From the IMG/VR virus record IMGVR_UViG_3300025132_000289, positions 1 to 24,306 of that record: a stretch of DNA of 24,306 nucleotides. One strand, written 5' to 3'. Below are positions 572 to 10,640 of the stretch, piece after piece (within the stretch, counting starts at the first letter, position 1; every line of letters starts with the position of its first letter). The stretch is from a virus. A program made the position numbers and the translations under genes. The notes beneath the pieces were generated by a model that was given only the letters and a program-made list of their open reading frames with translations, did no database searches and had not been told where the DNA came from.

Positions 572-600
572 TTGACGCAGCCGCAAAGCCACGCCATAAT
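572..600 (+). promoter_or_regulatory. Sigma-70-like promoter driving the structured RNA region
   Basis: TTGACG (572-577), a 17-nt spacer and CATAAT (595-600), each hexamer matching the consensus at 5 of 6 positions. Transcription would start near 607 and run rightward into the hairpin run, the 138-aa gene and possibly the whole plus-strand operon. The dyad at 588-606 covers the -10 box. Confidence 0.6.
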
Positions 601-606
601 CGTGGC
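588..606. promoter_or_regulatory. Dyad over the -10 box, operator-like
   Basis: A perfect 6-bp inverted repeat GCCACG-N7-CGTGGC. The seven-base centre CCATAAT contains the predicted -10 hexamer. A dyad centred on a -10 box is a common position for a repressor site. It is inferred only from symmetry and position. Confidence 0.45.
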
Positions 607-1000
607 ACACCGCACGCAACACGGTCAACTGTTGCGCCCCGACCAGCCATCGGGAGATCGCCCGTCAGAAGGGCAGCCGCTGCATGTCCCAACAGGAATG
701 CAGCCTAGCAACCAAAGCTACTTGCTAGAGGCGACCAACCTAAACTGGCGGAGGGACCCAGGGGTGACCCGACCCCAAACCAAACAACAGGCAACCCAAC
801 AAACCAAAACTCCCCACAGACTGATTAGCATTATTTGTAGAGGGTGGTATCTCGGCACATCTACCCGTACAAAATCCAACACCAAGCCATTCCACCAAGG
901 GGGGGTGGCACTTAAACCACCGGCACCGGTCAAACAAAGTGAGACTTCCGTTAGTGGCGTGGGACCCCCTTGGTGTTTATGGATTGGTGGGATTTTGTGG
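607..1000 (+). ncRNA. Candidate structured leader/noncoding RNA with a run of hairpins
   Basis: No credible protein gene lies here. Five closely spaced hairpins are visible: 615-636 (7 bp, loop 8), 638-654 (5 bp, loop 7), 660-674 (4 bp, loop 7), 679-704 (7 bp plus 3 bp across a bulged G, loop 5) and 705-728 (7 bp, loop 10). A competing outer helix pairs 656-662 with 730-736 with one mismatch. Then comes an A/C-rich, nearly T-free stretch (about 771-820), and a GGTGG/CCACC hairpin at 904-921. It sits directly after the predicted promoter and leads into the self-complementary element. I do not recognise it as tRNA, tmRNA or a riboswitch. The strand is inferred from the promoter only. Confidence 0.45.
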
Positions 1001-1001
1001 A

Positions 1002-1330
1002 GGCGTCTGGTGAAGACTCCTTCGGAGATCGGAGTTTCTCTAAGTTGGCTAAAGTACCATTTAGGGCGTCCTTTCTAAGGCCGCGGGCGGTCCCCGGTTG
1101 CAACAGGCACCACGATGCCACACCACGAGCACCCGCTCCATGTGCCCTGTGCCACACCTCGTTCCTCGGCATGCCACATGCCACACTCCGGGGCGCCCGC
1201 GGCGCGGCGTTCGGGTGGCCTGTAAGCAACCGGGAACCACCCGGGGCCAAAGAAAGGAGTGCCCGAAATGGCACTTGAATCCAACAAAGAGAAACTGGCC
1301 GATCTCCTCAGTCGTCTTCACCAAGACGCC
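1002..1330. repeat. Inverted repeat arm A
   Basis: Exact paired blocks I can place: 1002-1008 with 1324-1330; 1009-1017 with 1314-1322; 1024-1032 with 1299-1307; 1033-1040 with 1289-1296; 1069-1076 with 1251-1258; 1093-1101 with 1226-1234. Block 1117-1134 pairs with 1191-1208 with five A-C mismatches on the plus strand, which become G-U pairs on the minus strand. The apex (about 1137-1190) folds further. The left half is a degenerate reverse copy of the leader, ribosome-binding site and first 21 or so codons of the gene at 1268, with stop codons, so it is not coding. Confidence 0.8.
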
Positions 1331-1684
1331 AAGAGGTTTTCGTTGATCGGAAACGAGCAGCGGAAGGGTCGCCAGACGTTCTGGGCCAACTACGACTCGG
1401 ACCTGGCTGTCGGATTTGTCCCAGCACAAACCTTCACCTCAGGCGAAGGCGGGACTCACCTCTACGCAGCGATCGCTGACGGAGAACAGTGGTTCATCGG
1501 CGTCATGGCCTGGCTGCGGCCAGAACGGTCGCTAATCGAAGATGCCCAAGAAAAGGATCACATCGTCGCGGCGATTCCGATGACCGACGCGGACCACGCG
1601 ATCGCAACGCTTCGTGAGATTGCCCTCCTGGTTCGCTCTAAGACTTCCAGCAAGCCTCAGTCCAAGAGCGTCTTCGCCAAGTAA
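1268..1684 (+). CDS. 138-aa protein of unknown family carried by the rod element
   Basis: Starts MALESNKEKLADLL and ends SVFAK. The ATG at 1268 has a strong AAAGGAG (1253-1259) 8 nt upstream; a GTG at 1259 is in frame but lies inside that site. The sequence reads like a real soluble alpha/beta protein: an N-terminal charged helix, strand-like stretches around residues 36-50 and 62-80 (THLYAAIADGEQWFIGVMAW), a later helix (about 108-128, ATLREIALLV) and a basic tail. Balanced composition and high GC at third codon positions support coding. No family is recognised, and I see no Cys/His metal motif, membrane span or signal peptide. The whole message is self-paired: the ribosome-binding site and start with arm A, the rest with arm B, so translation would need unwinding. 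The stop lies at the base of the 1680-1763 hairpin. Confidence 0.75.
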   Translation: MALESNKEKLADLLSRLHQDAKRFSLIGNEQRKGRQTFWANYDSDLAVGFVPAQTFTSGEGGTHLYAAIADGEQWFIGVMAWLRPERSLIEDAQEKDHIVAAIPMTDADHAIATLREIALLVRSKTSSKPQSKSVFAK

Positions 1685-2098
1685 CACTAAGGGCGAGTCC
1701 TGGTCTTCGGACCAGGGCGAACCCATGCCCTGGTCCGAAGTCCAGGCTAGCCCAAGTGTTACTAAGCGAAGAAGCTATTGGCCTGCTGCTTGGGAAGTCT
1801 TGAGCGCACCAGGGGTCAACCTCCTCAGCGGCGCTCGCGGGTCAGCGCCGGCCATCTCCATCTTGCGACTCTGTGTCCTTTTCTAAGGGCATCTCCGATG
1901 AGCTGACCGTCTTGGCCGCCTCCAGGCCATGCCACCATTCACCTACTGTTCTCTCGCCAGCGTCGCTGCGTAGGGTCGAGTCCACGCCTCGCCAGAGGTT
2001 CGGTTGGTGCGGGAAAATCTCGACATCCAGTCCCGAGTCTTCGTTGTCCCCGAACGTGGCGACCCTAACCGCTGTCGTTTCTCGATCAACGAAAACCT
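1334..2098. repeat. Inverted repeat arm B (degenerate reverse copy of the gene body)
   Basis: Exact blocks include 1334-1349 with 2083-2098 (16 bp), 1462-1471 with 1964-1973, 1483-1490 with 1945-1952, 1504-1513 with 1922-1931, 1640-1648 with 1793-1801, 1680-1688 with 1755-1763 and 1705-1718 with 1727-1740 (14 bp). The blocks are collinear, giving full-length correspondence of codon 23 to beyond the stop. The reverse copy (minus strand, 2098 to 1764) has frameshifting insertions and stops relative to the gene, so pairing rather than coding is kept. The arms are similar in length (385 and 372 nt). Confidence 0.8.
1680..1763. repeat. Apical hairpin after the 138-aa gene
   Basis: The tip of arm B: about 38 nt on each side around an 8-nt loop (1719-1726), with 14 perfect pairs next to the loop and nine at the base. 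It begins inside the last codon and stop of the gene. It has no T-tract on either side, so it is not a standard intrinsic terminator. Confidence 0.75.
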
Positions 2099-2129
2099 AG
2101 ATTAAGGAGCCGAGAGAAACCACCCTCTT

Positions 2130-2147
2130 GGTTCCACTATCACCATA
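2130..2147 (+). promoter_or_regulatory. Repeated intergenic motif, copy 1
   Basis: GGTTCCACTATCACCATA lies about 20 bp upstream of the gene at 2166. The core CACTATCACC recurs at 3367-3376 with similar flanks (GGTTC and CATA). Both copies are intergenic on the same strand, which suggests a protein-binding or promoter element, but no consensus is recognised. Confidence 0.35.
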
Positions 2148-3392: not shown

Positions 3393-3446
3393 GCAGAGGA
3401 GGAGAGGTTCTTACTCCTTTCTCCCTCTCCTCCTCTGCGCTTTCTT
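3393..3446 (+). terminator. Intrinsic terminator between early blocks
   Basis: A perfect 15-bp stem (3393-3407 with 3424-3438), a 16-nt loop, then GCTTTCTTAA. One arm is all purine except one C and one T, the other its complement. It would end or attenuate transcription coming from 2166-3288. The stem is unusually long and the T-run is short, so partial read-through is likely. Confidence 0.6.
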
Positions 3447-9234: not shown

Positions 9235-9411
9235 TTATTCAGTCTTTGAGCGAGAGTCCACAATTACGCCGAGAGTATGCAACGCTAGTGAACTGCCTGA
9301 AATCCAAAGACCCCAGCGAAGGGTGTCTCCAGACATGGTAATCAGGACGAGTCCTACGCCGCCTACTGTCCACGCAAGTGCGTAGCTCTCAAAGAAAATC
9401 TTTCTAATCAT
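9235..9411 (-). CDS. Two-span small membrane protein, possible second holin/antiholin
   Basis: A 58-aa protein: MIRKIFFESY, span one (ALAWTVGGVGLVLITM), a short turn (SGDTLR), span two (WGLWISGSSLALHTLGVIV), and a charged tail (DSRSKTE). GGAG lies about 5 nt before the ATG, inside the 3' end of the Thr-rich gene, which it overlaps by 8 nt. Its position directly upstream of the holin and endolysin in the transcription direction suggests a lysis role (antiholin or second holin), by inference. Confidence 0.6.
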   Translation of the reverse strand: MIRKIFFESYALAWTVGGVGLVLITMSGDTLRWGLWISGSSLALHTLGVIVDSRSKTE

Positions 9412-10597
9412 TTTTTCTCCGAGTAGTAGGTGTAGAAGGTCCTCCTGAAGTTGTTGGTGTGGTGGGGACGGGAGCAGGCGGGAGAGGCCGTGTAGCGGCT
9501 GCTACTGCGATGCTGGCACTTTGAACAGCAATGATAGCCCGTCGATCTTCGACGGTTACTGTGGAGCCTGACGGGATGTATTGCTCAGTCGCGCCACCAA
9601 AGATATTGACCTCTTCCTCAAACGCTTCTTTTACTTCGTCGTCTGCGTCTTGAATTGCTTCTGCGACTTCTTCGATTTGTTCGTCGGACAGTTCTTCGTA
9701 TTCAAGTTCTTCGATGACTTCTGGAGTGATCTCTTCTAGTTCAGGTAGAAGAGTCGTCGTTGGAGGAATAGTTGTTGTAGGCGGTTGAGTCGTCGTAGGC
9801 GGCAGCGTGGTAGTTGTCGTCGGCGGGACCGTTGTGGTCGTTGTCGTCGTACTCGTAGTAGTAGATGTTGACGTTGATGTCGTCGGTGGCAGCGTAGTCG
9901 TCGGTGGCAGAGTCGTAGTTGTCGTAGTCGTCGGTGGCAACGTAGTGGTCGTGGTGGGCGGCAAAGTGGACGAAGTAGTTGTCGTCGTCGTCGTTGGGGG
10001 CGCCTGAGTAGTCGTTGATGGTGGGGTCGTAGTGGTAGATGGCGGTGCCTCGGTCGTTGTAGTTACTGGGATCGTCGTCGTAGTCGTCGTCGTAGTGGGT
10101 GCTGCGGTAGTAGTCGTAGTCGTCGTTGTAGTCGTCGTCGTAGTAGTCGATGACGTTGTGGTCGTAGTCGTTGTCGTTGTTGTTGGAGGGGAGTATCCGT
10201 CGGTTGACCATGTGACTGTTCCTGAGCCGTCTGGAACATCCATTCCAGATTGTTCTTGGTACGTTCTAAATCGTAGGACATAAGTTCCTGCCTGGGGAGT
10301 GAGGTGGAGCTTGGACCCATAACAGTTGTCTTGTTCGTTGTGGTTTCCGTCGTCATCGTCGGCCACGATATTGCCTTCTGAGTCAATTAGGCGCAGCCAA
10401 GGGTCAACGGTTGTTGCAAAATCTAAAGGACAAGCGGTGTTGCTGTCGAATGTAACGCTAAGCAACGTTTCGCCGTCTAAAGTTATGTTGTAGTCCAAAT
10501 ATGGCGTATCTGCACTAAGCGAAACGCTTTCAAGTGCAGTTGCAGCGGGTGCAAACCAAGCTGCTATATAGAAAAAAACGAGCAACGCTTTGCTCAT
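9404..10597 (-). CDS. Secreted protein with beta-sandwich domain and long Thr-rich linker
   Basis: A 397-aa protein from ATG 10597 (ATG 10612 gives five more residues). N-terminal signal peptide: KALLVFFYIAAWFAPAATA. Residues about 22-125 look like a pre-peptidase-C-type beta-sandwich (ESVSLSADTPYLDYNITL, WLRLIDSEGNIVADDDDG, GTYVLRF). A linker of about 150 residues follows, almost all Thr with Pro and Ser. Then come an acidic helical block (ELEEITPEVIEELEYEELSD), EEEVNIFGGATEQYIPSGST and a Pro-rich tail. Likely exported to the host surface or matrix. It is cotranscribed with the lysis cassette. Confidence 0.7.
   Translation of the reverse strand: MSKALLVFFYIAAWFAPAATALESVSLSADTPYLDYNITLDGETLLSVTFDSNTACPLDFATTVDPWLRLIDSEGNIVADDDDGNHNEQDNCYGSKLHLTPQAGTYVLRFRTYQEQSGMDVPDGSGTVTWSTDGYSPPTTTTTTTTTTSSTTTTTTTTTTTTTTAAPTTTTTTTTIPVTTTTEAPPSTTTTPPSTTTQAPPTTTTTTTSSTLPPTTTTTLPPTTTTTTTLPPTTTLPPTTSTSTSTTTSTTTTTTTVPPTTTTTLPPTTTQPPTTTIPPTTTLLPELEEITPEVIEELEYEELSDEQIEEVAEAIQDADDEVKEAFEEEVNIFGGATEQYIPSGSTVTVEDRRAIIAVQSASIAVAAATRPLPPAPVPTTPTTSGGPSTPTTRRKND
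9750..10185 (-). repeat. Threonine-codon low-complexity tract
   Basis: On the minus strand this is nearly continuous ACN triplets with CCN punctuation, coding for the Thr/Pro linker; the plus strand reads as GTN runs. It produces spurious Val-, Asp- and Tyr-rich ORFs in other frames. Such tracts vary in length by slippage. Confidence 0.85.
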
Positions 10598-10640
10598 TCT
10601 ACGCCATTGCATTTCACAAAATTATCACAGGAAAAACTAA

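Follow-up and report, generated by a model that had tools for sequence, protein, structure and literature searches.

A conserved structured leader RNA behind an early promoter of probable actinobacterial phages, and the kilobase rods that look like its optional cargo

Positions 572 to 740 of the viral record IMGVR_UViG_3300025132_000289 would comprise an early promoter and the 5′ domain of the structured leader RNA with which the early transcript begins in a family of actinobacterial phages. The leader is a conserved and uncatalogued RNA of dozens of actinobacterial viruses for which Rfam contains no family, and in a minority of contigs it is directly followed by a giant palindrome that would fold into a rod and that embeds a small open reading frame (ORF). 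The reading that we favor, to which we assign a probability of roughly 0.4, is that the leader serves as an RNA-based replication-control element with the rod as co-transcribed cargo; it is modelled on a homologous non-coding RNA of the extrachromosomal prophages of cluster A mycobacteriophages.

Materials and methods

The window, by which we mean the whole stretch of DNA that was analysed, is a 24,306-bp virus record of the linear class in IMG/VR, and is abbreviated W where it is compared with its relatives. The relatives L004 and L007 were found via DUF932, and the leader pattern added L010, L011, and L013 to L021. A covariance model of the leader, R1, was built from 16 leaders. The loci scored with R1 had been picked for possessing the leader's core motif, and loci with little beyond this core score 16–17 bits, which is the motif-only baseline; evidence for the family was taken from the covariance model, and raw counts of the core pattern, which are lower bounds, were not counted as evidence.

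Results

Genomic context

Genes for capsid and tail are present in the window, whose early operon includes DUF932, WhiB, DnaA-C-like, Rad52-like, SSB-like, and PD-(D/E)XK nuclease genes; together these mark it as a tailed phage, and the WhiB gene and the phage matches of its DUF932 protein point to an actinobacterial host. The hosts of the other metagenomic leader contigs are probably actinobacteria as well. No parA was found among the scanned proteins of the window, and the leader precedes the early operon with no parABS alongside. GC skew, at first negative, turns positive at ~2 kb and negative again at ~16 kb, and the gene strands switch at 8.3 kb, such that the skew is positive across the minus-strand genes from 8.3 to ~16 kb. 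In 10 of 13 contigs, the GC-skew minimum is situated downstream of the leader at a distance of 0.2–3.5 kb, which is suggestive only, since the gene strands switch at the leader too. Elsewhere in the window, imperfect internal repeats (~67%) occupy 9773–10191 inside a minus-strand ORF of 402 aa (9404–10612), and the early operon holds a short palindrome at 3393–3438, near which contig L003 begins; this palindrome and another at 9609–9650 of L007 are perfect or near-perfect and are probably terminators.

Promoter

The promoter proposed in the initial annotation is present as described there, with its −35 box at 572–577, a 17-nt spacer, and its −10 box at 595–600 (Table 1). A bare match of this kind is not beyond chance (one found in 3.6 kb versus 2.3 ± 1.5 expected), and the case therefore rests on conservation: the layout is kept in three relatives, as TTGACG-17-CATAAT in L004 and L007 and as TTGCAA-17-TACAGT in L010, the group of L011 to L021 has −10 boxes reading TACACT or TACAGT at an equal distance, and both the −10 box and the interval that separates it from the first hairpin are kept among the relatives. 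The perfect 6-bp dyad centered on the −10 box (GCCACG at 588–593, CGTGGC at 601–606) was also described correctly and is found in L004 too. The operator-like role that had been attached to it is rejected, as the dyad has been lost from L007 and L010.

Table 1. Features of the leader and rod region of the window (strand: +, plus;., none assigned)
Feature	Coordinates	Strand	Remarks
Sigma70-like early promoter TTGACG-17-CATAAT	572..600	+	Kept in L004, L007, L010
6-bp dyad around −10 box	588..606	.	Absent in L007 and L010
Leader hairpin H1 (CGCAAC/GTTGCG)	615..636	+	Compensatory changes
Leader hairpin H2 (CCCGA/TCGGG)	638..654	+	100% of cells paired across relatives
Core TCGCCCGTCAGAAGGGC, contains hairpin H3 (GCCC/GGGC)	658..674	+	Invariant in 14 leaders
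Leader hairpin H4 (GCTGCAT/ATGCAGC)	679..704	+	Covariation analysis
Leader hairpin H5 (CTAGCAA/TTGCTAG)	705..728	+	98.8% of cells paired, 3 covarying pairs
Conserved 3′ block GGCGACCAACCTAAACTGGCGGAGGGA	730..756	+	Conserved among relatives
C/A-rich, G/U-poor linker, ends in GATTAGCATTATTT	757..838	+	
Closing helix of whole rod region, 5′ strand	839..853	+	Pairs with 2114–2128; equivalents in L004, L007
Rod 1 (~320-nt palindrome)	1005..1325	+	3′ arm holds Shine-Dalgarno site and start codon of rod ORF
Shine-Dalgarno sequence AAAGGAG	1252..1258	+	Paired with 1069–1075
Rod ORF, 138 aa, orphan	1268..1684	+	Homologous (about 20–36%) to rod ORFs of L004, L007
Rod 2 (765-nt imperfect palindrome)	1334..2098	+	78% self-complementary, E ~1e-136, ~312 bp unbranched
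Closing helix, 3′ strand	2114..2128	+	Pairs with 839–853
Motif CACTATCACC directly after rod	2135..2144	+	Same motif at same place in L004, L007

Structure and conservation of the leader

The transcript would begin near 607, and all five hairpins of the initial annotation lie exactly where it had placed them, with the third at 660–674. The segment 607–740 folds at −49.4 kcal/mol versus −36.7 ± 3.9 kcal/mol for dinucleotide shuffles (z −3.3; one of 200 shuffles as good). Similarity to the window extends over 308–950 in L004 (88% identity) and 323–836 in L007 (79%), and in an alignment of 14 leaders 91.5% of the cells are paired under the proposed structure. Twelve pairs covary, with both sides changed; shuffles give 5.8 ± 1.4, and controls with slid partners give three at the most. 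H2, for instance, is formed as CCCGA/TCGGG, CTCGG/CCGAG, CACCA/TGGTG, CACGC/GCGTG, or CACGG/CCGTG. A lack of stem conservation in relatives had been named as what would count against a structured RNA here, and the stems were instead found conserved, with compensatory changes, in 13 other phage contigs, so that the proposal of a structured RNA issuing from this promoter upstream of the rod is supported by conservation and covariation. Within the core, alternative pairings would engage 658–662, as the 5′ strand of a helix P1, with 730–734, and possibly 663–668 with 745–750 in a pseudoknot. With its compensatory hairpins, its constant place after the promoter, and the C/A-rich linker behind it, the leader is, on the evidence of the alignments, one RNA family.

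Many contigs contain the 17-nt core, TCGCCCGTCARANGGGC, preceded by a −10-like box and a short hairpin and followed by variable hairpins, a conserved 3′ block, and a C/A-rich linker. The search by covariance that the initial annotation had called for recovered ~40 further contigs, and R1 reached at least 28 bits in 44 of 100 core-selected loci among the matches listed. Control loci picked by a look-alike motif gave only three weak matches, all at or below 12 bits, and the nearly empty control shows that the core-selected set is not a pattern artefact. Against Rfam, the window and 11 related loci gave no match at gathering score, with GOLLD, ROOL, and OLE included in the search, and the weak matches with E ≤ 5 consisted of microRNA matches to the rod, with neither GOLLD nor ROOL among them; the kinship with GOLLD and ROOL that had been put forward for comparison thus found no counterpart, and assignment of the leader or rod to these or any other Rfam family is rejected. 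A scan of a genome contig collection returned a single match, in Acetobacterium, which was discarded as spurious. The literature within reach, which included few subscription journals, describes neither the rod RNA nor a leader of the window's type.

Occurrence in cluster A mycobacteriophages

Among isolated phages, the core is found in cluster A4 mycobacteriophages, in an unannotated right-end region upstream of leftward genes, where R1 scores only 21 bits, and in phages of the AnnaL29 type, where it sits directly upstream of parA on the opposite strand. AnnaL29 and LadyBird, neither of which was in the training set and in both of which the RNA sits shortly before parA on the opposite strand, score 30.1 and 28.6 bits against the baseline of 16–17 bits, and by these scores and their alignments they share the architecture of H1, H2, core, and H4. 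The homologue in Alma scores only 11.6 bits and has its core hairpin as GCCG/CGGC versus GCCC/GGGC elsewhere, which is a compensatory change. The transcribed regions Alma 26463–26959 and LadyBird 25900–26299 are needed for stable prophages and prophage replication, and such non-coding prophage regions suffice for autonomous replication (Wetzel et al., PMC7157519); no conserved motif of these RNA-based origins is described in that study. The LadyBird core (~26217) falls inside the origin deletion 25900–26299, and the Alma homologue (26542–26794) falls inside 26463–26959.

The window's leader thus resembles the origins of LadyBird, Alma, and the AnnaL29 type (PMC7157519) in H1, H2, the core TCGCCCGTCAGANGGGC, and the start of H4. 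It differs from them in following an early promoter and in being continued by a 3′ block, a C/A-rich linker, and a rod, whereas the cluster A RNA adjoins parA and is expressed in the prophage; the parABS-adjacent position of those origins is not shared by the window's leader, and its conserved 3′ block is not evident in the cluster A homologues. As a separate observation, a 170-nt imperfect palindrome lies at the extreme right end of cluster A4 mycobacteriophage genomes, on the opposite side of the leader promoter (L133 1735–1903, also in L074 and L107).

Rods behind the leader

In the window, the rod region as a whole spans 839–2128, and the fold of 600–2099 amounts to −852 kcal/mol. Rods occupy the same place behind the same leader in L004, as a 1,589-nt palindrome, and in L007, where two arms (705 and 591 nt) flank a pyrimidine-rich loop of ~960 nt. 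This loop (L007 6880–7840) is open, consists of near-pure TCG/CTC repeats, and is predicted to be near-unstructured. Scanning 259 loci for giant inverted repeats revealed three more rods behind the leader, in L030, L097, and L127, for a total of six leader contigs with a rod, directly downstream of the leader in each. The longest unbranched rods measure 312 bp in W, 355 bp in L004, 254 bp in L030, 308 bp in L127, and 196 bp in L097, which is cut by the contig end; the L007 rod is larger than the span that was measured, and the remaining measured loci do not exceed 84 bp. Some ~36 leader contigs have no rod, a count in which rods may be under-represented because contigs such as L010 and L097 end in or near them.

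The rods are 68–78% self-complementary, not 100%, and most cannot be aligned with one another; those of L004 and L007 give no alignment with that of the window despite leader identities of 79–88%. The suggestion in the initial annotation of perhaps a single functional RNA, ~1.5 kb long and made up of leader and rod, stands insofar as the two are probably co-transcribed, and gives way insofar as they are separable, given that leaders are mostly rod-less and that the leader sequence is conserved while the rod sequence is not. Judged by sequence, the rods look like optional cargo. The rod-less contigs L103 and L083 have strongly folded, branched sequence 200–900 nt downstream of the core (z −7.6 and −6.3), and L062 and L050 are also folded downstream of the core; related hairpins occur in L103 and L083 and in L062 and L050, and these may be further large RNAs. 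As most leader contigs are rod-less and some have branched RNA there, large structured RNAs seem to use the site as a docking place.

Copies of a CACTATC motif are found between the early genes (W 2135, 2683, and 3367; L004 7300 and 8433; L007 8544 and 9667; seven copies in L018). In the loci checked, the motif is on the transcribed strand only, and it also stands directly behind the rod.

Maintenance of pairing and the embedded genes

Between the rods of L030 and L097 (87.5% identical), six pairs have changed on both sides, all of which are still Watson-Crick, versus 2.5 double changes of any kind expected; pairing is therefore maintained. Over seven rod segments, the plus-strand mismatches comprise 27 G-U versus 143 A-C (p 3e-20), 37 G-A versus 156 C-U (p 1e-18), and 8 G-G versus 25 C-C (p 0.005), and owing to this avoidance of G at plus-strand mismatches, it is the minus strand that has the better fold in every rod. 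If a perfect inverted duplication had decayed neutrally, G-U and A-C should be equally frequent, and this origin was rejected on these counts. In our reading, the bias reflects selection on a plus-strand RNA for strict Watson-Crick pairs and genuine interruptions, and the linker is likewise G-poor; less probably, the bias stems from a role of the DNA or of the minus strand.

All six rods embed a small ORF behind a good Shine-Dalgarno sequence that is itself within the duplex. The encoded proteins belong to at least two unrelated families, one comprising W, L004 (6709–7170), and L007 (7926–8366), at about 18–39% identity, and the other L030, L127, and L097, with L030 and L127 41% identical. Between L030 and L097, pS is 0.225 and pN 0.085, a signature of purifying selection that marks the ORF as encoding a real protein. 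The viral contig collection yields only W, L004, and L007 as bearers of the window's rod protein, and no relative was found in Pfam, PHROGs, or PDB. AlphaFold models of the rod proteins are weak (pLDDT 52 and 63), Foldseek gave nothing significant (best E 0.06), and the best hit of a fold search, Pur-alpha at Z 3.6, is not significant either. Mismatches at codon positions 1/2/3 number 13/19/15 in W, 33/40/18 in L004, and 17/24/12 in L007; the rod as a twin-gene palindrome of two coding copies was rejected on two grounds, namely the lack of any excess of mismatches at wobble positions and the interrupted mirror frame of W. In L004 and L007 mismatches are fewest at wobble positions, as though the freedom of synonymous sites served to preserve the pairing.

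Discussion

Under the favored reading, RNA polymerase would start near 607 and the leader would fold at once, after which its transcript would start, or help to start, phage DNA replication beside the promoter. A large structured insert follows behind the linker, in the window a 1.3-kb rod, which would be separable, co-transcribed cargo, and the ribosome site of its embedded gene would stay shut in double-stranded RNA until something opened the duplex. What favors replication control is that the LadyBird core and the Alma homologue lie inside the regions required in PMC7157519; covariation, family breadth, GC skew, and an early operon with DnaA-C-like, SSB-like, Rad52-like, and PD-(D/E)XK genes were also counted in its favor. 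Against it, the role is borrowed from distant homologues, in which the features common to the window's leader are limited to H1, H2, the core, and a portion of H4; the low score of Alma, the lack of a core motif in the early leader of D29, and the strand switch that confounds GC skew were counted against it as well.

Antitermination would account just as well for a place immediately after an early promoter, and a cis-acting RNA whose nascent hairpins load on polymerase and carry it through the linker, rod, and early operon is possible, if somewhat unlikely. The leader is a compact multi-hairpin RNA that directly follows an early promoter and is always at the 5′ end, a position it has in common with HK022 put and the EAR element; put RNA provides the precedent (PMC9378689). 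The likeness is one of layout; the window's leader is larger and has a conserved core and a C/A-rich linker. This G-poor linker resembles a Rho-loading site, for which affinity to Rho would have to be presumed, and 1.3–2.6 kb of mostly untranslated rod would need protection from Rho; on the other side, the homologous core occurs in a prophage origin RNA that points away from parA. Replication control and antitermination would not have to exclude each other. A trans-acting small RNA that disturbs the host from high abundance is a doubtful candidate: the core of cluster A4 phages sits in an unannotated right-end early leader, and L5, D29, and StarStuff produce an abundant, stable, toxic early RNA from the corresponding promoter (PMC5712189), but the right end and early leader of D29 contain no core motif, for which reason we claim no homology between the two RNAs, and the cluster A4 score is low. 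Next to nothing speaks for an assembly or amplification artefact, or for a promoter and hairpins that arose by chance. A bare promoter match is no rarity, but such an origin is already refuted by conservation, in the form of leader covariation, six contigs with imperfectly self-complementary and mostly unalignable rods at the same place, and the compensatory changes between L030 and L097.

For the rod, we consider it improbable that leader and rod constitute one large functional RNA or RNP whose ORF product coats or processes the rod, by analogy with hepatitis delta, Obelisks, or ROOL and GOLLD. Such an RNP is consistent with all six rods lying directly behind the leader with a small ORF in each, with pairing that is kept while sequence turns over, and with the strong folding of L103 and L083 at the same place; leaders without a rod are the rule, however, and the rod proteins derive from unrelated families with no fold match. 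Quite improbable, too, is a rod that acts as DNA, a giant interrupted palindrome extruded or folded in single-stranded replication intermediates near an origin. Its nearness to the GC-skew minimum, mismatches that are unlike RNA drift, and the better fold of the minus strand would suit this, but the promoter, Shine-Dalgarno sequence, ORF, and leader are all on the plus strand, and the avoidance of G at unpaired plus-strand positions extends to the linker and fits selection on a plus-strand RNA. We put forward as speculation, and as rather unlikely, a DNA phage that encodes behind a dedicated leader a kilobase rod RNA serving as a protein-associated RNA body, in which pairing and not sequence is selected, one arm carries the gene of its own binding protein, and replication or antitermination by the leader drives production.

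Like GOLLD, ROOL, and OLE, the rod is a large structured RNA of a phage or bacterium whose function is not apparent at first sight, but those RNAs have branched, ornate folds, whereas the window's rod consists of a single extended duplex, holds an ORF, and has no Rfam match. It has in common with Obelisks and hepatitis delta a rod shape of ~1–2 kb with an embedded ORF. Unlike them, it is encoded by a phage with a double-stranded DNA genome, in which a promoter and leader precede it, and it is not an autonomous circular RNA replicon without a DNA copy, since the 24.3-kb record to which it belongs is phage DNA that also encodes capsid and tail proteins. The rod proteins are orphans with respect to Pfam, PHROGs, and PDB. 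Kilobase RNA duplexes that are encoded in DNA, share no sequence similarity between close relatives, and are nonetheless still paired, with an ORF inside, are without precedent to our knowledge.

Conclusions

What we call novel is the arrangement of leader plus rod, and the leader by itself less so. The leader connects the early-transcript leaders of dozens of uncultured phages with the RNA-based prophage origins of mycobacteriophages, a link that makes the role of this RNA testable in M. smegmatis, and if the rods act as RNA, they would represent a new kind of large phage RNA.
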